This document shows, piece after piece, positions 6,392-57,693 of a stretch of DNA of 64,000 bases (its first letter is position 1; each line of letters opens with the position of its first letter). The notes beneath the pieces were generated by a model. The model had not been told where the DNA came from. It saw only the letters and a list, made by a program, of their open reading frames with translations, and made no database searches. This DNA is from Pseudobutyrivibrio ruminis (GTDB lineage Bacteria; Bacillota; Clostridia; Lachnospirales; Lachnospiraceae): the NCBI GenBank assembly GCA_015057315.1, contig SVER01000003.1, positions 62,001 to 126,000 of the forward strand, read 5' to 3'. Made by a program: the position numbers and the translations under genes.

Positions 6392-7768
6392 ATGGGAAAA
6401 ACTAAGAGAACTACCATAAAAAGCAGAATAACAAGGCATGTGGTCATAGCTATTATTATTACAGTAGGTTTTATGACTGTTGTTAATCTTGTATATCTTT
6501 CCAGGCGTATTATAGAGCAGCAGGAGATGAAGCTGGAGTTGGCTACTCAGATGAGCGCTAACAGGGTGGAAAATTGGATTAAAGATATGTCTACAGTAAC
6601 AGAAGATATGGCAAGCTCGTTGACTGCTACCGGGGATTTGAGCAAGGATATAGTAAGGGCTGTTGTAGATAGGGTAGCTCTTAATCATCCTGAATTTTAC
6701 TTCGTTTATTTTTCAGATAAACTGGGAAATATGACCATGGCCAGAGGCGTGGACTTTGCCAAGGGTGTAGATCCTAGAGAACGCGGTTGGTACAAGAAGG
6801 CTGAGGCTGCAGGACATACGGTAGTACTTGACCCTTATGCCAGCGCAACCAGGCCAGATGTAATGATGGTGACAGTTGCAACACCTGTATATTGGGGAAC
6901 CATGATGGTGGGCGTTGTGGCAGTTGATGCAGATATAGAATCAGTACAAGAGTTTATGGGAACCATTAATTTTGAAGAAGGCTCCTATGGATTCCTGCTA
7001 GATAGCCAGAACAATATAATTGTTCATCCAAATGCTGATTATAATCCTACTTCGGAAAAGATTACAGCAGCAGTGGATGTAATGCCAGAGCTTGAAAAGG
7101 TTCTTTCTTCATCAAAGAAGGATGAGTATGTAACTAACAAGGACTACACAGGAACTAGCATGGTTTATTCAGCTACAACCATTGAAAACAGTAATTGGAC
7201 AATAGCAGTTGCTTATCCTGAGTCAAACTTCTTAGCTCACGTAGATAGAGGAATAAGGATAAGCTTACTTGTAGCAGTATTTTGTATAGCTTTAGCACTT
7301 GGGGATATTACAATTACCATTAGAAACGTGCTTAAGCCTCTAGAACAAATTAATCCAGCTATGGATAAGATTATGGAGGGTGATTTTACAACTAAACTGA
7401 ATTTCGCCACTGCAAATGATGAGATTGGGGATTTGCAAAACAAACTGGCTGTTACGCTAGAAGCATTGTCCAAGGTAATTCAGGAACAGAAGTATGTTTT
7501 ATCTGAGATGGAAAAGGGAAATCTGGTTGTGGAAAACATAGACGACTTCCCAGGAGAGCTTAATGAGATTGCAACATCAGTTAATTCAATCAAGGAGTCA
7601 TTTAACGATATTATCAGTGATATTCAGTTCTCAGCTATAAACCTACAGAGCTTTGCAATGGGAATCAATGAATCTAGCGACTTAGAGGAAATGAGGTCCG
7701 TGTTTGAGGAGCTTTCAGCTGAGGCAAATGCTCTGATGGAAAAAACGTCCAAGTTCACCACAATGTAA
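6392..7768 (+). CDS. Cache-domain membrane receptor lacking a signalling domain
   Basis: A 458-residue protein: TM1 at about residues 14-37, an extracellular double-Cache sensor (for example FVYFSDKLGNMTMARG, DPRERGWYKKA and YGFLLDSQNNIIVHP), TM2 near 287-309, then a HAMP-like helix pair and a short helical tail ending LMEKTSKFTTM. Receptors of this shape usually continue into a methyl-accepting hairpin of about 250 residues; here the reading frame ends first and a terminator follows. GAGGG provides the ribosome site. It may be a truncated receptor or a sensor that acts through partner receptors. Confidence 0.8.
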   Translation: MGKTKRTTIKSRITRHVVIAIIITVGFMTVVNLVYLSRRIIEQQEMKLELATQMSANRVENWIKDMSTVTEDMASSLTATGDLSKDIVRAVVDRVALNHPEFYFVYFSDKLGNMTMARGVDFAKGVDPRERGWYKKAEAAGHTVVLDPYASATRPDVMMVTVATPVYWGTMMVGVVAVDADIESVQEFMGTINFEEGSYGFLLDSQNNIIVHPNADYNPTSEKITAAVDVMPELEKVLSSSKKDEYVTNKDYTGTSMVYSATTIENSNWTIAVAYPESNFLAHVDRGIRISLLVAVFCIALALGDITITIRNVLKPLEQINPAMDKIMEGDFTTKLNFATANDEIGDLQNKLAVTLEALSKVIQEQKYVLSEMEKGNLVVENIDDFPGELNEIATSVNSIKESFNDIISDIQFSAINLQSFAMGINESSDLEEMRSVFEELSAEANALMEKTSKFTTM

Positions 7769-7797
7769 TAAAAATAAACAAGAAAAATATCAAGGAA

Positions 7798-7832
7798 AGT
7801 CTTCACAAGGTGTGGAGGCTTTTTTTGTTTGT
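7798..7832 (+). terminator. intrinsic terminator
   Basis: AGTCTTCAC pairs with GTGGAGGCT (with G-T wobbles) around a short loop, followed by a long T-tract. It separates the Cache receptor from the LacI regulator. Confidence 0.8.
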
Positions 7833-7848
7833 TTTTTACAAAAAGTGC

Positions 7849-7860
7849 GCAACCGATTGC
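7849..7860 (+). promoter_or_regulatory. LacI-family operator upstream of the regulator
   Basis: GCAACCGATTGC is a near-perfect palindrome with the central CG expected of LacI/GalR-family operators. It lies 54 bases before the regulator start and resembles the site at 9054-9065 before the transporter, suggesting autoregulation. Confidence 0.6.
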
Positions 7861-7913
7861 AAATGTAAATTTAGTGTGCTAACGTAGGATGTTAGAAAGA
7901 GAAGAGGTTAATT

Positions 7914-8903
7914 ATGAGCCATACATTAGATTCTATTGCCAAAGAATTAGGCCTAAGCAAGACAACAGTGAGCCGTGCTATTTCAGGAAAGGGCCGAATT
8001 TCAGAGGAAACCAGGAAAAAGGTTAATGAATATATTAAGGAGATAAACTATAGACCAAGTGCTGTAGCCAGGTCTCTTGCTTCTAATCGCACATACAATG
8101 TGGGATTAGTTGTGCCTGCAGATTCTGCACTTGGAGAGATGCCATATTTCCAGACACTTATGACAGGTGTTTGTGATAGAGCTATGGAATTTGAGTATGA
8201 TGTACTTATCATCCTTGCGGATAATGATGGTATTGCAGCCTTAAGGCATGCTGTATCTAACAGAAAGATAGATGCTGTTATTGTCAGCCGCTGCGAGCGT
8301 GATTCCAAGGTTATCAACTTCTTGAAGGAGTCTGATATACCTTATATTGTTGTGGGAAATCCTATGGAAGAAGGGGTTCCTTATGTGGATCACGACAACG
8401 AGGGCGCTGCGTCTAGAATGATAGAAACCCTTATAGATGCAGGTATTACCAGGATGGCTCTTATCGGCGGTGGTGAAAATATCAATGTTACCCTTAGCCG
8501 TTTGGAGGGCTTTAAAAAGGGCTTTATAAACAAAGGATTAAAGGCAGACGAATCCCTTATTTTCTTAAATATGCATAAAAGTGCGCGAATGGATTCTGTT
8601 CTAAAGGAATCTATTGCAGAGGGGGCAGAGTGTATAGTTTGCATGGATGATATGCTCTGTAATTCTGTGCTTAATTGCCTGCATAACGATGGCATTTCTG
8701 TACCAGAAGATATCAAGCTTTGTTCTTTTTATGATTCTAATTTGCTTTCTACATCAAAACCATCTATTACCAGCCTTTATTTTGATGCAAAGAAGTTAGG
8801 TGGCCAGTGCTTAGAGATTTTGATGCGCAACTTGGATGGGGAAAGTATCACAAGTCAGACTCTCACCGACTTTAATATCCAAATGAGGGATAGCACAATA
8901 TGA
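7914..8903 (+). CDS. LacI-family transcriptional regulator
   Basis: A 329-residue repressor. Residues 5-25 form the helix-turn-helix (IAKELGLSKTTVSRAISG), followed by the hinge helix YRPSAVARSLASN that inserts in the operator minor groove, then a periplasmic-binding-protein-like effector domain. GAAGAGG supplies the ribosome site. The next three genes encode a MalEFG-type importer with a similar operator, so this is most likely the local sugar-responsive repressor or activator (MalR-like). The effector is inferred, not seen. Confidence 0.9.
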   Translation: MSHTLDSIAKELGLSKTTVSRAISGKGRISEETRKKVNEYIKEINYRPSAVARSLASNRTYNVGLVVPADSALGEMPYFQTLMTGVCDRAMEFEYDVLIILADNDGIAALRHAVSNRKIDAVIVSRCERDSKVINFLKESDIPYIVVGNPMEEGVPYVDHDNEGAASRMIETLIDAGITRMALIGGGENINVTLSRLEGFKKGFINKGLKADESLIFLNMHKSARMDSVLKESIAEGAECIVCMDDMLCNSVLNCLHNDGISVPEDIKLCSFYDSNLLSTSKPSITSLYFDAKKLGGQCLEILMRNLDGESITSQTLTDFNIQMRDSTI

Positions 8904-47895: not shown

Positions 47896-49479
47896 ATGAT
47901 AGAATGGAAGAATTTTGATAAGCTCGAGTCTTACAAGACTCTCCAGGGGCTTAAGAATCAAGTAGAATTAAAGTCTGCAATGGCAGGAGCAAACGGTGCT
48001 AAGCGTGTTGCTGAGTACGTAGTTCCAATGTCTAATGGAATGGTTTACAATTTTGCTTCAAAGCAGGTAGACGACACAGTTCTTGATGCACTTGCAAAGC
48101 TTGCTGACGAGGCACAGCTTGTAGATAAGTATGCAGCCCTCTACAACGGAGAGGTTATCAATACAGGTGAGAAGAGATTAGTTCTTCACCAGCTTACACG
48201 TGGTCAGCTTGGAGATGATGTTACAGCTGATGGCGTTAATAAGAGAGAGTTTTATGTAAAGCAGCAGGAGCGTATCGCTGATTTCGCTAACAAGGTTCAC
48301 GCTGGTGAAATCGTTAACGAGAAGGGTGAGAAGTTCACATCAGTAGTTCAGATTGGTATCGGTGGTTCTGACCTTGGCCCTCGCGCTATGTATCTTGCAC
48401 TTGAGAATTGGGCAAAGGTTACAGGCACATTCAAGATGGAGGCACACTTTATTTCAAATGTAGACCCTGACGATGCAGCTGCAGTACTTGCAGGTGTTGA
48501 TGTTGCTCATTCAATCTTTATCCTTGTTTCAAAGAGTGGTACAACACTTGAGACACTTACAAATGAGTCATTTGTTAAGGATGCCCTTGCAAAGGCTGGC
48601 TTAGATGCAAGTAAGCACATGATTGCTGTTACATCTGAGACATCACCACTTGCAAAGTCATCTGATTACTTAGATGCATTCTTTATGGATGATTACATCG
48701 GTGGCCGTTATTCATCTACATCTTCAGTAGGTGGCGCAGTGCTTTCACTTGCATTTGGTCCAGATGTATTCGCTAGATTCTTAAATGGTGCAGCAGCAGA
48801 GGATGCTCTTGCAAAGAATGCAGATATCCGCAAGAACCCAGCACTTCTTGATGCACTTATTGGTGTTTATGAAAGAAACGTACTCGGATACGAGTCTACA
48901 GCAGTTCTTCCATACTCACAGGCACTTAGCCGTTTCCCTGCTCACTTACAGCAGCTCGACATGGAGTCAAACGGTAAGAGCGTTAACAGATTTGGTGAAA
49001 AAGTTGATTACGTTACAGGCCCAGTTATCTTTGGTGAGCCTGGCACAAACGGTCAGCACAGCTTCTACCAGTTATTACATCAGGGAACAAACATCATCCC
49101 ACTTCAGTTCGTAGGCTTCAAGAAGAGCCAGATGGCAACTGATGTAGTTATCGAAGGCAGCACATCACAGCAGAAGCTTAAGGCTAATGTTGCAGCTCAG
49201 ATTATGGCTTTCGCTTGTGGTAAGGATGATGACAACAGAAATAAATACTTCGAAGGTAACAGACCTTCTTCAATTATCGTAGGCGAGCAGCTTACACCAG
49301 AGACACTTGGTGCACTTCTTGCTCACTTCGAGAACAAGGTTATGTTCCAGGGCTTCGTATGGAATCTTAACTCATTCGATCAGGAAGGCGTTCAGCTTGG
49401 TAAGGTCCTTGCAAAGAAGGTACTTGCTGGCGATACATCAGATGCTCTTGCAGCATACGCTAAGCTTTTGGATATCTAA
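47896..49479 (+). CDS. pgi: glucose-6-phosphate isomerase
   Basis: A 527-residue Pgi of the long type, which interconverts glucose 6-phosphate and fructose 6-phosphate in glycolysis. Signature segments are IGIGGSDLGPRAMY, DYIGGRYSSTSSVG, LQQLDMESNGKSV (catalytic Glu) and FGEPGTNGQHSFYQLLHQGT (catalytic His). ATG 47896 is preceded by AAAGGAG; GTG 47887 is rejected because it lies inside that site. Codon use is strongly biased, as expected for a highly expressed core gene. A good terminator follows. Confidence 0.95.
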   Translation: MIEWKNFDKLESYKTLQGLKNQVELKSAMAGANGAKRVAEYVVPMSNGMVYNFASKQVDDTVLDALAKLADEAQLVDKYAALYNGEVINTGEKRLVLHQLTRGQLGDDVTADGVNKREFYVKQQERIADFANKVHAGEIVNEKGEKFTSVVQIGIGGSDLGPRAMYLALENWAKVTGTFKMEAHFISNVDPDDAAAVLAGVDVAHSIFILVSKSGTTLETLTNESFVKDALAKAGLDASKHMIAVTSETSPLAKSSDYLDAFFMDDYIGGRYSSTSSVGGAVLSLAFGPDVFARFLNGAAAEDALAKNADIRKNPALLDALIGVYERNVLGYESTAVLPYSQALSRFPAHLQQLDMESNGKSVNRFGEKVDYVTGPVIFGEPGTNGQHSFYQLLHQGTNIIPLQFVGFKKSQMATDVVIEGSTSQQKLKANVAAQIMAFACGKDDDNRNKYFEGNRPSSIIVGEQLTPETLGALLAHFENKVMFQGFVWNLNSFDQEGVQLGKVLAKKVLAGDTSDALAAYAKLLDI

Positions 49480-49492
49480 AAAGTTTATTAAA

Positions 49493-49527
49493 AATGGCTA
49501 CCGTGTATTGCGGTAGCTATTTTTTTA
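49493..49527 (+). terminator. intrinsic terminator after pgi
   Basis: AATGGCTACCG (49493-49503) pairs with CGGTAGCTATT (49511-49521) and is followed by a T-run. Confidence 0.9.
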
Positions 49528-49545
49528 CGCTAGGATATGTAAGAA

Positions 49546-49594
49546 AGCCTTCTCCCTGTGGGAGAAGGTGGCAGCGCAGCTGACGGATGAGGGT
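49546..49594 (+). repeat. short copy of palindromic intergenic repeat
   Basis: GCCTTCTCCC and GGGAGAAGG form a hairpin, followed by TGGCAGCGCAGCTGACGG and ATGAGGGT. The same core lies at 10498-10526 in the malE-malF repeat. The GAGGG at its right end is six bases from the ATG at 49600, so the repeat appears to provide the ribosome site of the next gene. Confidence 0.75.
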
Positions 49595-49599
49595 AAACA

Positions 49600-50298
49600 A
49601 TGAATAATTTTACAGACAAAGAACAAGAAGCAGTTAAAAAGACTTGGGCAGGGGAAAAAGCAAAGCTTAAACAGATGACATTTAGTGAAAAGCTAGAATA
49701 CATCTGGGCGTATTATAAGCTACATTTATTAGTGATTGCACTAATCATCGGTGCAATTACCTGGGGCGTTCATCATGCCCTTACTTATGTGGAGTATCGT
49801 ATTTACGGTATGGTCATTAATTCAGGCCAGTTCAATGAAGAACTAAACACTACTCTTCATGATAAGCTGGGCATGGCTAAGCACGATGGAGTCAACATCA
49901 CTGCAGACCTATACACAGATGAAAGCGCCAATATGGGCGGCTACGGTAATCGCCTGGATATCTATGTTATGTCTGGTCAGCTTGACTTTGCATTTACGGA
50001 TAAAGAAGGTGTTGATTATCTGGTAAATATGGGAGCAATCAGAGACATTAAAGAGCTCGCCCCAGATTATCTATTATCTGAGTGGTCAGATGATAAGCTT
50101 TACGAAGCCTCAGTTGTTGGAGATGATGGTAACACCTACTCTGGCAATGTGGCTGTAGATATTTCAGATAGCCCAATTCATGAATACTTCGGTTTAGATG
50201 ACAATATCAATTATCTAGTGCTTGCTGATTTAAGTGGTAGCGAAGAATACATGAATAATTTTTATAAATTACTATATGAAATAGAAGAAGGAGAATAA
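49600..50298 (+). CDS. single-pass membrane protein of unknown function
   Basis: A 232-residue protein: a charged cytoplasmic N-terminus, one membrane helix at about residues 43-64 (LVIALIIGAITWGVHHAL), then a soluble domain of about 165 residues rich in Asp (TADLYTDESANMGGYGNRL, LDIYVMSGQLDFAF). The domain recalls a solute-binding-protein lobe but is too short for a full one. It precedes a DUF624 gene by four bases, so the two work together. Its ribosome site comes from the upstream repeat. Confidence 0.6.
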   Translation: MNNFTDKEQEAVKKTWAGEKAKLKQMTFSEKLEYIWAYYKLHLLVIALIIGAITWGVHHALTYVEYRIYGMVINSGQFNEELNTTLHDKLGMAKHDGVNITADLYTDESANMGGYGNRLDIYVMSGQLDFAFTDKEGVDYLVNMGAIRDIKELAPDYLLSEWSDDKLYEASVVGDDGNTYSGNVAVDISDSPIHEYFGLDDNINYLVLADLSGSEEYMNNFYKLLYEIEEGE

Positions 50299-50302
50299 GG
50301 TT

Positions 50303-50938
50303 TTGGGAAAGTTTTTTAACAGTAGATTTTTTGAGGGAATATCAAAGGCAACAGACGTAATACTTGTGGGTCTGTATTTTATAGTATGCTCATTGCCAAT
50401 ATTTACAATTGGTGCCAGCGCAACAGCATTATATTATGCTACACATAAGTGCATCTACAAAGGCCGTGGCTACACTACAGAGTTCTTCCGTTCATTCAAG
50501 GATAACTTTAAGCAGTCCACATTATCCTGGTTAATCTTTATGGTATTGTTTGGAATTCTTGCAGGCGATATTTATATCACCAGAAACTTCATTCCAGCTG
50601 ATAGCCCAATTGCAGCAGCATCAATCTTCTTTTTAGTATTGATGGTATTTTCTATCGTTTGGGCAATCTATCATTTCGCATACATTGCCAGGTTCGAAAA
50701 CAGCTTCAAAGAGTCCTTTAAAGTCTCAGCAATATTTATGATTGCAAATATCGGATGGTCAATTGCAATAGTAGGTGTTGTTGTTCTTGGACTCTTATTA
50801 ATGTACAGATTTATGATTTTAATCGTGTTTGCGCCAGGATTATTCGCCTGCGCATTTCATCCTATCCTTGAGAAAGTCTTCCGCAAGTACATGTCAGCCG
50901 AAGATATCGCCAAAGAAGACGAGGATAAGTATTACTAA
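50303..50938 (+). CDS. DUF624 (YesL-like) membrane protein
   Basis: A 211-residue protein with about five membrane helices, of the DUF624/YesL family (YFIVCSLPIFTIGASATAL is the characteristic first helix region, and SFKDNFKQSTLSWLIF follows). YesL proteins often occur with sugar transporters and are of unknown function. TTG 50303 is the likely start, after AAGGAG and coupled to the previous gene. Confidence 0.8.
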   Translation: MGKFFNSRFFEGISKATDVILVGLYFIVCSLPIFTIGASATALYYATHKCIYKGRGYTTEFFRSFKDNFKQSTLSWLIFMVLFGILAGDIYITRNFIPADSPIAAASIFFLVLMVFSIVWAIYHFAYIARFENSFKESFKVSAIFMIANIGWSIAIVGVVVLGLLLMYRFMILIVFAPGLFACAFHPILEKVFRKYMSAEDIAKEDEDKYY

Positions 50939-50952
50939 GAATATTTTTTAAT

Positions 50953-50988
50953 AGAGGCATCCTATAGAAGGAATGCCTCTATTTTTTT
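50953..50988 (+). terminator. intrinsic terminator after DUF624 gene
   Basis: AGAGGCATCC (50953-50962) pairs with GGAATGCCTCT (50970-50980, one bulge) and is followed by T7. It overlaps the 3' end of the convergent gene. Confidence 0.85.
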
Positions 50989-51756
50989 GTCGACAATGAA
51001 TGAATCCAGTGGGTCATCGCTTGTTTCAAAAGAAGCAATAAGCTGCTTTCCAGGCCAATAGCCAGCCCTTTCATACATAAATAATTTTAGCAAGTTGTTA
51101 ACACTGTAGTTGTCATCGTCAGTAAGACCAAAATGTTCCCAGATAAGAGTCTGCCTTGTCCTCTTGTTTAATACTATGAAATCGGGATATTTTAGATGCT
51201 CATTTATAACTAGCTTAGGCTCATAAACATAGGGTATCTCGAAATCTAAAAGTCTATCTGCAATTATTTTCTCAGATTTGGAGCGAACCAGTTCTCCCTT
51301 TTTGGTGCAAATACCTTTATCAATTGCATAAGAGTTTTGACTTCCAGGATTTTTATCATACCAATCCTTAATAAAGGTATTGATATCTGGAATAATCGGT
51401 GTAATAAGTGATCTTCTTCCAGGGTTAAAGGAAAAATAGATGTTGTCCATTTCTAAATACAAATCTACATGTATCCCTTTTTTTATTTTATTTATTAATT
51501 CACGCATTCTTTTTGAAACCTTTATCAAATAATCCCTTTGACAAATAGAGGTAATGAAACCTATATTGTCAGCGGATAAATATTGCCCCTTAGTGTCTGA
51601 ACGGTTCTTGTAGTAATAGAATCTGGGGTATCCCTTACTGCTTTCTAAGCGAATGAAGCCCTTAGGTGCCGACAGTAATTCTTTATCAGCGATATCCATT
51701 AGGTTGTATACGGATACTACTAGTTTGTTCAGGTCTATAACAGGTGTTAATGACAT
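50962..51756 (-). CDS. PD-(D/E)XK-nuclease-like protein
   Basis: A 264-residue minus-strand protein. The N-terminal half is unassigned (a basic helical region near KVSKRMRELINKIKK). The C-terminal part has the layout of a PD-(D/E)XK nuclease: RSKSEKIIADRLLDFEIPYV, EPKLVINEHLKYPDF and TLIWEHFG, with an Asp in PDF and a Glu-His pair in place of the usual E-x-K. GGAG precedes ATG 51756; a longer frame reaches 51822 but lacks a ribosome site. The phased palindromic array at 51841-52210 lies right upstream of its start. Confidence 0.65.
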   Translation of the reverse strand: MSLTPVIDLNKLVVSVYNLMDIADKELLSAPKGFIRLESSKGYPRFYYYKNRSDTKGQYLSADNIGFITSICQRDYLIKVSKRMRELINKIKKGIHVDLYLEMDNIYFSFNPGRRSLITPIIPDINTFIKDWYDKNPGSQNSYAIDKGICTKKGELVRSKSEKIIADRLLDFEIPYVYEPKLVINEHLKYPDFIVLNKRTRQTLIWEHFGLTDDDNYSVNNLLKLFMYERAGYWPGKQLIASFETSDDPLDSFIVDKKIEAFLL

Positions 51757-51840
51757 AAAATCTCCTTTCAAAGTAAAAATTAATGTAAATATATTGGTAA
51801 ATTGCAGCAGCAAATTAGGCAAATTCCATTCTTAGAAATG

Positions 51841-52210
51841 AACTTAAGTGTAAATACTAATTTTGATTTATTCACTTATATGCTATATGTGAATAAGTTA
51901 AGTGAAATAGTGAGAATACAAAATTCACTTAAAAACTGATTTTGCTGTTAAGTGTAGATAGATTTTATTAAAATAAACTTAAATGAAAATAGAAAAATCA
52001 GCTGTTTGTTAAGTGGAAAAAAGTTTTAGAGGGAAAAACTTAACAAGCAGCCTTGTTTGGTTAAGTGAAAATATAGAAATGTATATTAAACTTAAGTATA
52101 GCTAAAAAGTTTTAACGTAACTTAAGTGAAAATATTTTTTTCTTATAGAAACTTAACAGCAAAATCAATTTTTAAGTGGGAATTGTGATCCTCAATAAAA
52201 ACTTAACTTT
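51841..52210. repeat. helically phased array of ACTTAAGT-like palindromes
   Basis: Fourteen sites matching all or part of [CA]ACTTAAGTG. The core TTAA (TTAT in the second) begins at 51844, 51876, 51898, 51929, 51948, 51979, 52009, 52040, 52061, 52092, 52122, 52153, 52172 and 52203. Spacings are 30-32 or 19-22 bases, about three or two helical turns. From the third site on, the spacing series reads the same in both directions. Outer 28-base arms (51926-51953 and 52151-52178, one mismatch) and inner 14-base arms (52001-52014 and 52038-52051) are inverted copies. No coding frame fits. Confidence 0.85.
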
Positions 52211-52226
52211 TGAAGCAGTGAAATGT

Positions 52227-52329
52227 CTTAGAACTCCAAATAAGGGGCAATATTACTCAAAAAAGCCACAAACGCAATTTACCTAAAGTACCAGGCAAGA
52301 TGAAAGCCAATCTTGCCAATAGTTCTAAG
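52227..52329. ncRNA. candidate structured element
   Basis: CTTAGAACT (52227-52235) is complementary to AGTTCTAAG (52321-52329). Inside this, GGCAAGAT (52294-52301) pairs with ATCTTGCC (52310-52317) around an eight-base loop. Both stems are perfect. It follows the palindromic array directly; no promoter or terminator was identified. Confidence 0.4.
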
Positions 52330-52640
52330 CTCTAAAAAGACAAATACTCCTAAAATACCTAAAGCTGCATGTTATACCTATTCAGTTGTAAAAATATTGT
52401 GGGGTAAATTATATATTCTTATCATTAGAGGAAGCCTGCTGTTTAGCTTCAACTAAAGTACTACAAAATAGCTGCTGTTAGCCATAGACTAATCAATTGT
52501 AGTGGTCATGAATCCTGCTGTACTAGATGTGCATGACGAATATATAAGATGCTGTAGAAAAAATACAGCAATGTGTCCTGTGAATAACACAGCGTTATTT
52601 ATAACATGCACCAAACAAAATGTCAACATATAAATAACAA
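52330..52640. other. non-coding stretch before uvrB promoter
   Basis: About 310 AT-rich bases without a credible reading frame. The only feature noted is a small hairpin, ATGCTGTA and TACAGCAT-like, around 52549-52573. Confidence 0.5.
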
Positions 52641-52679
52641 CAAACAGATGTTTGACATATTGTATGGCTATGATATAAT
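52641..52679 (+). promoter_or_regulatory. uvrB promoter with LexA-like box
   Basis: TTGACA (52652-52657), a 16-base spacer and TATAAT (52674-52679) give a consensus promoter. CAAACAGATGTTTG (52641-52654) overlaps the -35 and resembles the Firmicutes LexA box (GAAC-N4-GTTC type, here AAAC-N4-GTTT). uvrB is a classical SOS gene, which supports the assignment. Confidence 0.6.
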
Positions 52680-52760
52680 ACAATACATACGATTGCGCAC
52701 AACCAAACTGCCAATCGGTAATAGAACTGTTAACAATAATGTAGATTTCGAGGGCCAGTT

Positions 52761-54749
52761 ATGGATTTCAAATTACATTCCGAGTACAAACCAACAGGTG
52801 ATCAGCCACAGGCTATTGAGGAGCTGGTAAGGGGCTTTAAGGAAGGTAACCAGATGCAGACACTTCTTGGTGTTACAGGTTCTGGTAAGACCTTCACCAT
52901 GGCTAATGTTATTGAACAGCTTAATAAGCCTACACTGATTATTGCACATAATAAGACACTAGCAGGTCAGCTATATTCTGAGTTTAAAGAATTCTTCCCA
53001 GAGAACGCTGTGGAATACTTCGTGTCTTACTACGATTATTATCAGCCAGAGGCCTATGTGCCTAGCACGGATACATACATTGCTAAGGATTCTTCTATTA
53101 ATGATGAGATAGATAAGCTGAGGCTTTCTGCTACAGCTTCTTTGTCGGAACGCCGCGACGTTATCATTGTTTCATCTGTTTCTTGCATTTATGGTATTGG
53201 TGAGCCAGATGATTTCCAGAACATGATGGTTAGCCTTCGCCCAGGAGATTTCAAGGACAGAGATGACGTTATCCATGAGCTTATCAACATCCAGTACCAG
53301 CGAAACGACATGGATTTTGACCGCGGTACCTTCAGAGTGCGAGGCGATACGCTGGAGGTTATCCCAGCCAACACCAGCGATTATGGTATTCGTATTGAAT
53401 TCTTCGGAGATGAGATAGACCGCATTTGCGAGACAGATATTATGACAGGTCAGGTGAAACGAGAGCTTGAGCATGTGGCCATTTTTCCAGCCAGCCATTA
53501 CGTTATTCCACAGGATAAGATTAACGCGGCCTGCGCCAGCATTGAAGCAGAGCTGGATGAAAGGGTAAAGTTTTTCAAGTCTGAGGATAAGCTGATTGAG
53601 GCTCAGCGAATAGCAGAGCGTACCAATTTTGATATAGAAATGCTTCGTGAAACAGGCTTTTGCTCCGGCATTGAAAACTACAGTAGGCACATGACCAACC
53701 AGCAGCCGGGAGAGCCACCTAAATGCCTGATTGATTATTTCGATGATGATTTCCTTATTATAGTGGACGAGAGTCACATCACACTTCCACAGATAAGGGG
53801 CATGTTTGCAGGTGACCAGGCCCGTAAGAAGACACTGGTAGAATACGGCTTTCGTTTGCCATCTGCCCTTGATAACAGACCACTTAACTTTGGTGAGTTT
53901 GAATCAAAGATTGATCAGATTATGTTTGTAAGCGCCACACCTGGCGATTACGAGGAAGAGCATGAGCTTCTCAGGACAGAGCAGGTTATCAGGCCTACAG
54001 GTCTACTTGACCCTGAGGTAGAGGTAAGGCCGGTTGAGGGACAGATTGATGACCTATTCAACGAAATCCAAAAGGAAGTTGAAAAGAAGAACAAGGTAAT
54101 GATTACCACACTTACCAAGCGAATGGCGGAGGATCTTACAGATTATCTGGCAGAGCTTGGCGTGCGGGTTAAATATATGCATTCTGATATAGATACTATG
54201 GAGCGTGCAGAAATCATCAGAGATTTGCGTTTAGATGTATTCGATGTATTGGTTGGAATTAACCTTCTAAGAGAGGGCTTGGATATTCCGGAAATCACAT
54301 TGGTTGCAATACTTGATGCTGATAAGGAAGGCTTTCTTAGAAGTGAGCGCTCACTGATTCAGACCATTGGACGTGCTGCCCGAAATAGCGAAGGCCATGT
54401 TATTATGTATGCAGATACCATGACAGAATCCATGGAAAAGGCTATTAGTGAGACAGAGCGTCGTCGTGAAATTCAGAAGGCATACAATAAAGAACACGGC
54501 ATCACTCCAAAGACTATTCAGAAATCTGTCCGTGAGCTTATATCTATTTCCAAGGATATTGCCCACAAGGAGATGCAGTTTAAGAAGGATCCCGAGGAGA
54601 TGGATAAGGCAGAGCTTGAGAAGCTCATTGCAGACATCCAAAAGAAGATGCAAAAGGCTGCTGCCGAGCTTAACTTCGAGGCTGCTGCCGAATACCGCGA
54701 CAAGATGGTTGAACTTAAAAATATGATAATAAAAATGTCTGAAGAGTAA
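52761..54749 (+). CDS. uvrB: excinuclease ABC subunit B
   Basis: A 662-residue UvrB, the damage-verifying helicase-like subunit of nucleotide excision repair. Walker A is [13 protein letters not shown], the strand-separating hairpin is [18 protein letters not shown], and helicase motifs include DESHITLPQ and [10 protein letters not shown]. The C-terminal UvrC-binding domain is [20 protein letters not shown]. The leader is about 75 bases. GAGGG gives a modest ribosome site. It is followed by uvrA after 121 bases. Confidence 0.97.
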
Positions 54750-54851
54750 TTTATTATCTTGCTTGCAAGAATAATAAATTCTCTTGAGACATCTAACAAC
54801 ATGAGGAATTTGGAACAAATTCCGAATGCTTGTTAGACTTGTGAAACAAGT
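54748..54851 (+). other. three consecutive hairpins between uvrB and uvrA
   Basis: First, a 15-bp stem with one bulge (54748-54762 with 54765-54780). Second, TCTAACAA (54792) with TTGTTAGA (54830), enclosing GGAATTT/AAATTCC. Third, ACTTGT-GAA-ACAAGT (54837-54851), again with a GAA triloop. None has a T-tract, so they may modulate read-through or mRNA stability between the two excinuclease genes. Confidence 0.5.
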
Positions 54852-54870
54852 CATTTTTATGAGGTGTTAA

Positions 54871-57693
54871 ATGAAAGAAAAAAAATACATAAAAATAAAA
54901 GGCGCCAACGAACACAATCTTAAAAACGTCAGCCTGGATATCCCACGTGACGAATTTGTTGTGCTCACTGGCCTGTCAGGCTCAGGAAAATCATCCCTAG
55001 CCTTTGATACAATATTTGCAGAGGGTCAGCGTAGATACATGGAATCCCTTTCCAGCTACGCGCGCCAGTTCTTAGGCCAGATGGAAAAGCCAAATGTAGA
55101 GCACATGGAAGGTATGCCACCAGCCATTTCAATCGACCAGAAGAGCACCAACCACAACCCACGTTCTACAGTTGGTACAGTTACAGAGATATATGATTAC
55201 ATGCGTCTTCTGTATGCCAGATGCGGTGTGCCACATTGTCCAAACTGTGGCAAGCCAATCAGCAAGCAGACAGTAGACCAGATGGTGGATGCCATTATGG
55301 CATTGCCAGAGCGTACTAAGATTCAGCTGTTGGCTCCTGTCGTTAGAGGCCGCAAGGGTACCCATGAAAAGCTTTTTGAAAAGGCTAAGAAATCAGGCTA
55401 TGTCCGTGTGAATGTAGACGGAAATGTGTACGACCTTTCCGAGGAAATCAAGCTTGATAAGAACATCAAGCATAACATAGAAATAGTAGTAGACCGATTG
55501 GTTGTAAAGGAAGGCATTGAAAAGCGTCTCACAGATTCCATAGAAGCAGTGCTTAAGCTGGCTGATGGCCTGATGATTGTAGATGTTATCGATGGGGAGC
55601 CTATCAGATTTTCCGAGGGCTTTTCATGTCCTGATTGCGGAATCAGCATCGATGAGGTAGAGCCACGAAGCTTCTCCTTCAATAACCCATTTGGTGCCTG
55701 CCCAGAGTGCTTTGGTTTGGGCTACAAAATGGAATTTGACGAAGATTTGATGATTCCAGACAAGAGCCTTTCCTTTAATCAGGGAGCTGTTCAGGTAATG
55801 GGCTGGCAGTCTTCAAACAAGAGCACCAGCTTTGCACACGCACTTTTGGAGGCACTTGCAAAGGAGTACGATTTCTCTTTGGATACTCCATATAAGGATT
55901 TGCCAGAGAATATCCGTCACATGTTTATCCACGGCTTTGACCGTTCGGTAGATGTGCATTACCAGGGCCAAAGGGGCCGTGGCGTTTACCCAACAGTTTT
56001 CGAGGGATTAATTGAAAATGTTAACCGCAGATATAAGGAAACATTTTCAGAGTCAGCTAAAAAAGAATACGAAGAGTTCATGTTCTACAGTGATTGCCCA
56101 TGCTGCCACGGTCAGCGTTTGAAGAAGGAATCACTGGCAGTTACAATAGATGATAAGAACATCTTCGAAATGACTCAGTACCCAGTGCACGAGCTTTATA
56201 ACATGATAGATAATCTGCATCTTACTGAGCAGCAGAAAAAGATAGGTGCTGTTGTGTTAAAGGAGATTAAGGCAAGGCTTAAATTCATGGTGGATGTAGG
56301 TTTGGATTACCTTACACTTAGCCGTGCCACAGCCACACTTTCAGGTGGTGAGGCTCAGCGTATCCGCCTTGCAACACAGATAGGTTCAGGCCTGGTTGGT
56401 GTTGCTTACATATTAGATGAGCCATCGATAGGTTTGCATCAGAAGGATAACGACAAGCTGTTAGCATCCCTTAAGGGCCTTAGAGACCTGGGCAACACAC
56501 TTATCGTAGTAGAGCATGATGCTGATACCATGCGTGCAGCGGATTATCTTGTGGATATCGGCCCTCGCGCAGGTAAGGATGGTGGACAAGTTATCGCCGC
56601 AGGAACCCCAGAGGAAATCATGGCATGCCCAGATTCCATCACAGGTCAGTATCTTAGCGGTAAGCTGTGCATCCCAGTTCCAAAGGAGCGTAGACAGCCA
56701 ACAGGTTGGATTACAATAAAGGGCGCCAGAGAGCACAACCTTAAGAACATCGATGTTGATATTCCACTTGGAATCATGACAGTAGTTACAGGTGTTTCAG
56801 GCTCAGGAAAGAGCTCTCTTGTAAACGAAATCCTTTACAAGGATTTGGCAAAGCGTCTGAATCGTGCCAGAAAGGTTTCAGGAAAGCATGATGATATTAT
56901 AGGAACAGAGGCTCTTGATAAGGTCATCGATATTGATCAGTCTCCAATTGGACGTACCCCTCGCTCAAATCCTGCTACTTACACAGGCGTGTTTGATTTA
57001 ATTCGTGACCTGTTTGCAGGAACAACAGAAGCCAAGGAGCGCGGCTACAGCAAGGGCCGATTCTCCTTCAATGTAAAGGGAGGTCGATGTGAGGCATGCT
57101 CCGGTGATGGTATCATCAAAATAGAGATGCACTTCCTGCCTGACGTTTATGTACCATGCGAGGTCTGCGGTGGTAAGCGATACAACCGTGAGACTCTTGA
57201 GGTTCATTATAAAGGAAAGACAATTTACGACATCCTTGATATGACAGTTGAGGAGGCGGTAGAGTTCTTCAAGAATGTACCTAGCATCCTTAACAAGATT
57301 CAGAGCTTGTATGATGTAGGACTTGGCTACATCAAGCTTGGTCAGCCATCTACCACATTATCAGGTGGTGAGGCCCAGCGTATCAAGCTTGCCACAGAGC
57401 TTTCTAGAAGAGCTACAGGCAAGACCATTTATATCCTGGATGAGCCTACCACGGGTCTTCATTTCGATGATGTTAACAAGCTTGTAGAAATCATGCGCAA
57501 GCTTTCTGATTCCGGAAATACGGTAGTTGTTATCGAGCATAATCTGGATGTTATTAAATGCGCTGATTATATCATTGATATGGGACCAGATGGAGGCGAT
57601 AGAGGCGGTACTGTTATAGCAAAGGGTACACCAGAAGAAATCGTAAAGGTGAAGAAGAGTTATACAGGACAATACCTTAAGGAATATTTGTAG
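54871..57693 (+). CDS. uvrA: excinuclease ABC subunit A
   Basis: A 940-residue UvrA, the damage-recognition ATPase. Two ABC ATPase modules are present: Walker [15 protein letters not shown] and [14 protein letters not shown], with signatures [14 protein letters not shown] and [14 protein letters not shown]. Zinc-binding cysteines occur in [17 protein letters not shown] and CEACSGDG with CEVCGGKRY. Length is normal. GAGGTG precedes the ATG. Confidence 0.97.

Follow-up and report, generated by a model that had tools for sequence, protein, structure and literature searches.

Phased half-site arrays with and without an adjacent nuclease-like gene in Lachnospiraceae: a candidate system of dispersed repeats

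What kind of sequence packs fourteen near-copies of one short site into 370 bp, at spacings that largely read alike in both directions, directly upstream of a gene for a nuclease-like protein? This question is raised by a locus of Pseudobutyrivibrio ruminis (GCA_015057315.1, contig SVER01000003.1), analysed within a window of 64,000 nucleotides, by which we mean the whole stretch of DNA studied; the array lies at window positions 51841-52210 and the gene at 50962-51756. We put at about 50% the probability that this array is the copy, beside its gene, of a family of dispersed repeats, in a system that would resemble REPIN-RAYT and be served by an unrelated restriction-fold nuclease.

Exact ACTTAA/TTAAGT cores occur 13 times in the 370 bp (TTAA at 51844, 51898, 51929, 51948, 51979, 52009, 52040, 52061, 52092, 52122, 52153, 52172 and 52203), and a degenerate site, CACTTA at about 51874, which is one base short of the core, completes the 14 near-copies counted in an earlier note on this DNA. 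The core-to-core distances are 54, 31, 19, 31, 30, 31, 21, 31, 30, 31, 19 and 31, the 54 corresponding to the note's 32 and 22, and from the third site on the series is mirror-symmetric with its centre at 52051-52052, so that both the spacing list and the symmetry about position 52051 were reproduced. The two larger inverted arms are also present; the one given as 28 bases extends to 35 nt at 89% (51926-51960 and 52144-52178), and the 14-nt one pairs at 93% (52001-52014 and 52038-52051). Resampling these 370 bp 5,000 times with a Markov model, a shuffled-type control, gave 1.30 exact cores on average and 7 at most, and the next-densest 370-bp stretch within the window has 4; chance or low complexity is ruled out by the resampling as the origin of the array. 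The same note took the site to be a palindrome of 8-10 bases. A recurring site is indeed there, but it is better described as a directional half-site, GTTAAGTKWATT (derived by eye from aligned arrays), in alternating inverted pairs F...R about 31 bp apart from centre to centre; certain half-sites happen to spell ACTTAAGT.

Gene-array pairs and their protein

The link that had been proposed between the array and the adjacent gene extends to many relatives, in which upstream arrays recur beside genes of the same family. Family matches were found in 41 of the 99 genomes searched, the window's own genome included with 10, and the family is multi-copy in Lachnospiraceae; among the best 80 of at least 577 matches, named loci beyond Pseudobutyrivibrio belong to Butyrivibrio, Lachnospira, Oribacterium and other Lachnospiraceae. 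In a sample of 299 genomes of the phylum, 11 match at E 1e-10, of which four (own included), all of the same family, match over nearly the whole profile and seven mainly in its C-terminal part. Arrays were scored for 126 distinct members out of 152 gene rows (L046, the interrupted L054, duplicates and rows with <300 bp upstream were left out). The upstream array exceeds all 40 resamplings of its own upstream stretch in 110 members and does not in 16, and a score >15 is reached by 102/126 upstream stretches, compared with 5/121 downstream stretches and 4/126 resampling maxima.

The motif of the array changes with the protein. It is CACTTAAC for the window gene and GGATGCATCC, CAGTACTG, CCACGTAG, GATAGTA, ACCCGTAA, GTGGTAA, GCACGCAC and others for other subfamilies, and by a simple rule the 102 best-scoring members fall into 55 motif groups, 32 of which have a single member, in some cases with a weak score. 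A motif is common to 89 of the 95 pairs with at least 70% protein identity, compared with 14 of the 2,776 pairs below 40%. The expectation that the spaced motif would accompany homologues of the window gene is thus borne out for close homologues (10/10 among the better matches listed, 98-48% identity) and fails for distant paralogues, which have other motifs. Motif sharing tracks the N-terminal part of the protein (r = 0.57) more closely than the C-terminal part (r = 0.41), which is the picture expected if the N-terminal domain reads the motif, and the half-site is probably recognised by this domain. Judged from such comparisons, genes with arrays of their own motif point to an undescribed family of DNA-binding systems. 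The earlier note knew of no named element of this form, and none was found among the papers listed by searches of mostly open literature, which leaves novelty unproven.

A helical phase emerges when many motif families are pooled. Same-orientation distances from families with a score >20 and a non-palindromic top 7-mer cluster at 52-53, 62-64, 73-74, 93-94, 104-106, 115 and 124-128 bp, and the best of eight periods tried is 10.5 bp (R = 0.771, n = 864, where distances within one array are not independent). The gap between F and R is 23 or 24 bases in 162 of 166 units of the window family, and in these 166 units half-site covariation is absent: position 1 pairs 89 times against 92.2 expected, and positions 2, 4 and 5 fall below expectation. 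The phase and the lack of covariation make duplex binding on one face likelier than hairpins, and copies of the protein may well bind the array in this way, consistent with the complex on one DNA face that had been suggested.

In layout the family combines a variable N-terminal domain with an invariant PD-(D/E)XK/EDxHD-like nuclease domain, whose active-site residues are the same in 102/102 members compared. The window protein has no Pfam match up to E 1, and 34 family members searched against Pfam gave only single-member matches at chance level, none of them a transposase. Searches of viral structure models with Foldseek gave four matches at E 0.001 with low TM-scores, one of them named a homing endonuclease. 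The N-terminal domain may be an integrase arm or AP2-like fold, but the hints are weak (phrog_1 integrase at E 0.00056 in 1/10, Arm-DNA-bind_1 at E 0.12 in 1/10) and no convincing structural match was found; T7 endonuclease I was dropped, with weak sequence matches at E 0.68 and worse.

GATAGTA-type genes stand between two direct array copies in G008, G019 and G015, and these copies are 87%, 74% and 90% identical in their best aligned part. As happens with long terminal repeats, recombination between the two copies would leave only a solo array behind. In the window's own genome, GATAGTA arrays occur in L366 and L367 with no family gene there, and a family paralogue on contig C88 (L365:2365-3208) lies in two frames, with no GATAGTA or CACTTAA sites in the fetched stretch. 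At another locus (L164:4001-4798 and 7466-8263), two family genes follow one another in tandem, with a separate array ahead of each, one of motif ACCCGTA and the other of GCGCGTA.

Dispersed arrays without a gene

To count arrays away from their gene (solo arrays), we searched 29 genomes of the genus for a pattern of three window-motif sites, with the reversed pattern as a control, which gave at most 2 matches in any genome. The ten genomes with a CACTTAAC-type gene have 1 to 102 matches each, 0 to 13 of them in the array beside the gene; once these are subtracted, 4 to 92 matches remain in nine of the ten and none in G027. Among the 19 genomes without such a gene, two have several matches (15 in G022 and 7 in G001, a genome 81% complete) and 17 have none or one. 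No family gene was found in the fetched flanks of 31 solo-array loci, orthologues included. The solo arrays sit between ordinary genes, such as those for flagellin, copA/csoR, thiC, asnS, hsp20 and transporters (here and below, uvrB, flagellin, copA, csoR, araD, thiC, flaG, fliW, asnS, hsp20 and patatin are names read by eye from translations). By hand count, the flanking genes at 22 distinct loci are co-directional at 17, convergent at 4 and divergent at 1; one solo array (L226) is overlapped by a 164-aa frame. Similarly, solo arrays with no family gene nearby are found in two more families, at 10/13 loci for GGATGCATCC and 10/13 for GATAGTA.

These copies are alike as whole units. Between non-orthologous arrays, homology of about 65-92% spans the array and ends at or near the outermost sites. 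The commonest length, 364-367 bp, is that of 13/19 arrays in one set (L225-L241) and 2/15 in a second, the rest being shorter or longer and both sets containing orthologues. The spacing map of the window recurs to within one base per step at three places in G012 (657k, 927k and 1743k), and further copies carry long parts of it or a variant. In nine aligned array pairs (the window-G008 pair left out), 1,422 of 1,440 site bases are identical, compared with 4,526 of 5,454 spacer bases, both directions counted.

Relatives also differ in which places carry an array. At the uvrB locus, the gene and its CACTTAAC array are present in G000 and eight further genomes of the genus (82-48% identity to the window protein), G022 has the array without the gene, and G016 has no element; G019 bears a 98% orthologue with an array, a contig end separating the gene from uvrB. 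Arrays are likewise present in some relatives and absent in others at thiC-, csoR-copA-, araD-csoR- and flaG-fliW-like places. An operator, origin or partition site proper to this locus, which had been among the earlier suggestions, therefore lacks support as a full account, because the same array stands at many gene-less places in relatives and G022 keeps it at uvrB without the gene.

Two side observations concern such loci. In G019, the last unit of the array orthologous to that of the window is interrupted between two contigs (end of L006, start of L079), and GGGAATTG is common to both contig ends at this point, which would fit the entry of an insertion sequence into the array. Upstream of a patatin-like gene, G015 (L257) has motif repeats of another family (ACTACCT/AGATAGTAG) where G008 has a CACTTAAC array.

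Preferred reading, known systems and alternatives

From these observations we infer that the family protein binds DNA, cleaves it and causes the dispersal. In the scheme we prefer, the commonest unit, of about 365 bp, has seven inverted half-site pairs in 10.5-bp helical register; the variable N-terminal domain would read the half-site, and several protein copies would line up along one face of the array, lattice-like. Each specificity would have a single nuclease gene, vertically inherited, that serves many non-autonomous arrays in trans; when an array or the DNA next to it is nicked or cut, repair could copy the array, lose it or re-insert it, and a paralogue with a changed N-terminal domain would found a new array family. 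The wider proposal, a new kind of dispersed element in which a restriction-fold nuclease reads and propagates large phased arrays of fixed geometry, and which has radiated into dozens of protein-motif pairs in one bacterial family, several per genome, is tentative and falls a little short of even odds. Known mobile-element enzymes include the DDE, HUH, serine and tyrosine classes; if true, the proposal would add an element class outside these four, and would provide a natural library of protein-motif pairs from which the DNA-recognition rules of one domain could be read and tested. The fixed spacing map makes the proposed assembly directly testable, and the conservation of sites despite spacer drift bears on why dispersed repeats that are tied to a gene persist so long in bacteria.

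In REPIN-RAYT systems (PMC3116915; PMC8049555), inverted repeats are dispersed through extragenic DNA and fall into several sequence classes with a gene for each; the gene is single-copy and vertically inherited, more repeat copies are found where it is kept, the RAYT is a tyrosine transposase, and the REPIN consists of two REPs forming a hairpin. Our arrays share the gene inherited vertically beside its repeat (here at the uvrB locus, in G000 and eight other genomes), the non-autonomous extragenic copies tied to gene presence, and the several sequence classes with a gene each. They differ in that the window protein has no Y1/HUH transposase match in Pfam up to E 1 and its model has a restriction-fold domain, and in that the element has 14 phased half-sites in about 365 bp with no hairpin covariation. 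EDxHD homing endonucleases such as I-Bth0305I (PDB 3r3p; PMC3943268) are also different, as here intact sites lie beside the gene itself and there are many arrays per genome; a homing endonuclease gene sits inside and protects its own target, whereas here the 13 exact sites, as putative cleavage targets, lie about 85-450 bp from the gene start. Unlike Tn7 (TnsA + TnsB + TnsC; TnsA in PDB 1t0f and 1f1z), the window gene has, by eye, no transposase, ATPase or targeting gene beside it. Unlike CRISPR arrays, the sites alternate in orientation, and the spacers are of several lengths and alike between copies. Compared with miniature inverted-repeat transposable elements or insertion sequences, homology between arrays extends to the outermost, inverted sites or close to them, and no target duplication was recognised at the junctions read. 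A phage or plasmid origin was rejected, since viral and plasmid matches lie mainly in the C-terminal part of large proteins: nine of ten viral-contig loci (L185-L194) match only from about profile position 148 on and one from 27, and eight plasmid records (H1-H8) have the C-terminal nuclease domain in large proteins, most annotated as AAA ATPases or helicases. Three unannotated records are called phages, one of which, 4.2 kb long, matches over 87% of the query.

Several results weigh against dispersal of this kind. Of seven solo arrays read in G012, five are matched by an orthologue in G020, which suggests that movement is slow, and in G012 and G020 the GATAGTA-type genes are accompanied by an array on their upstream side alone. 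In the junctions read, which are blurred by divergence, we recognised neither a target-site duplication nor the clean boundary of a recent insertion; the flanking DNA differs as well, by tens of bases, at the thiC-, csoR-copA- and flaG-fliW-like places, and at two loci searched for a clean recent insertion in G019 relative to G000, only one flank of each was found in G000. At one locus a single F-R unit in G019 faces a whole array between two GTTAAGTG repeats in G008, and at a second G000 is without most of an element present in G019; both differences may be deletions. The fold matches are close to the level reached by unrelated models, Foldseek gives nothing in PDB at E 0.001 (the top match being R2 retrotransposon at E 0.02), and no convincing structural match was found for the N-terminal domain. 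Moreover, in six orthologous pairs (one beside the gene, five solo), 970/974 site bases are identical compared with 3,316/3,727 spacer bases, so that the sites are preserved where they stand. No other result speaks as strongly against seeing the solo arrays as mere dead repeats, or for their having a function or being constantly renewed; a dead transposon copy would not need intact sites, which favours a role in place.

The main rival builds on this last result. It holds that the protein, by binding the dispersed arrays in trans, acts as silencer, looper or nucleoid marker, that the arrays are kept because they are useful where they are, and that the nuclease fold serves that purpose or is rarely used. 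The recurrent spacing map, the intergenic position among ordinary genes and a flagellin-like locus with an array in G000, G008, G012 and G020 agree with it as well. The invariant active site, however, speaks against it, the array-gene-array loci with direct copies resemble a mobile unit, only the flagellin-locus array among the seven read in G012 shares its place with a G008 array read, and, with one divergent gene pair among the 22 loci, shared promoters are not the usual place; we regard this explanation as unlikely, though stronger than any other rival. Dispersed element and structural or regulatory role may also both be true at once. The invariant residues would also suit nuclease-based defence or incompatibility, in which nuclease on the arrays would stay inactive, as a lattice, and the arrays would serve as a mark of self, whereas foreign DNA carrying isolated sites would be cut. 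The presence of several family genes in a genome agrees with this, as does the homology, over about 112 residues, between the nuclease domain and the C-terminal end of the PADLOC candidate defence protein PDC-S68 (E 9.2e-23); the profiles of the latter, however, have 1,202-1,273 positions and are matched at that end only, leaving the window N-terminal domain unmatched. As the dispersal of solo arrays and the fixed architecture would be superfluous and the window neighbours look housekeeping (by eye, no scan for defence genes having been made), defence is improbable. Still less probable is an operator only, by which the protein would repress its own promoter: the arrays do lie immediately upstream of the gene, but gene-less arrays contradict it as a full account, some GATAGTA-type genes have arrays on both sides, and 14 sites over 370 bp far exceed the needs of an operator. 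The smallest chance of all belongs to a single-strand hairpin element (REP-, attC- or IS608-like) with pairs acting as folded DNA or RNA. The pairs are inverted, and ACTTAAC/GTTAAGT matches the attC core consensus by coincidence; the missing covariation and the 10.5-bp phase, which fits duplex binding, speak against it, and no Rfam match up to E 1 was found on 51700-52760. No tRNA was found in 48000-56000, and the terminator scan gave no site within the array.

Feature coordinates and a neighbouring hairpin

Table 1. Features of the array locus in window coordinates, and related loci in coordinates of their own stretches
Feature	Coordinates	Strand	Basis or remark
Array element: 14 half-sites forming 7 inverted pairs, one half-site degenerate	51842..52207	none	Motif count, inverted-arm search, spacing map
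Mirror-symmetric core of 12 sites: six F-R pairs of about 31 bp, with linkers of 19, 30, 21, 30 and 19	51897..52207		Map also found elsewhere in other genomes
Seventh F-R pair, nearest the gene, including a degenerate CACTTATAT-like half-site	51842..51880	none	Degenerate half-site also seen in several solo arrays
Cognate gene, for a nuclease-like protein of two domains (264 aa)	50962..51756	-	Divergent; 85 bp from gene start to array
N-terminal domain, about residues 9-115, putative motif reader	51412..51732	-	Helix, three strands, long helix, two short helices (model)
C-terminal restriction-fold nuclease-like domain, about residues 145-264	50965..51324	-	RSKSE, PDF and WEH motifs; E162, D192, E207, H208
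GATAGTA-type array-gene-array loci	L363:1238-2783, L364:941-2458, L368:1585-3130		Arrays on both sides are direct copies at 3/6 such loci
Perfect match to a sigma-70-type promoter, upstream of the uvrB-like gene and not part of the array	52652..52679	+	Promoter scan

The neighbours of the window gene are a DUF624 gene (Pfam) and the uvrB-like gene. Directly 3' of the DUF624 gene, and overlapping the last codons of the nuclease gene, lies a hairpin with a T run (AGAGGCAT...ATGCCTCT) at 50953-50990, which the terminator scan did not flag; a similar hairpin is kept in G022, a genome without the nuclease gene.
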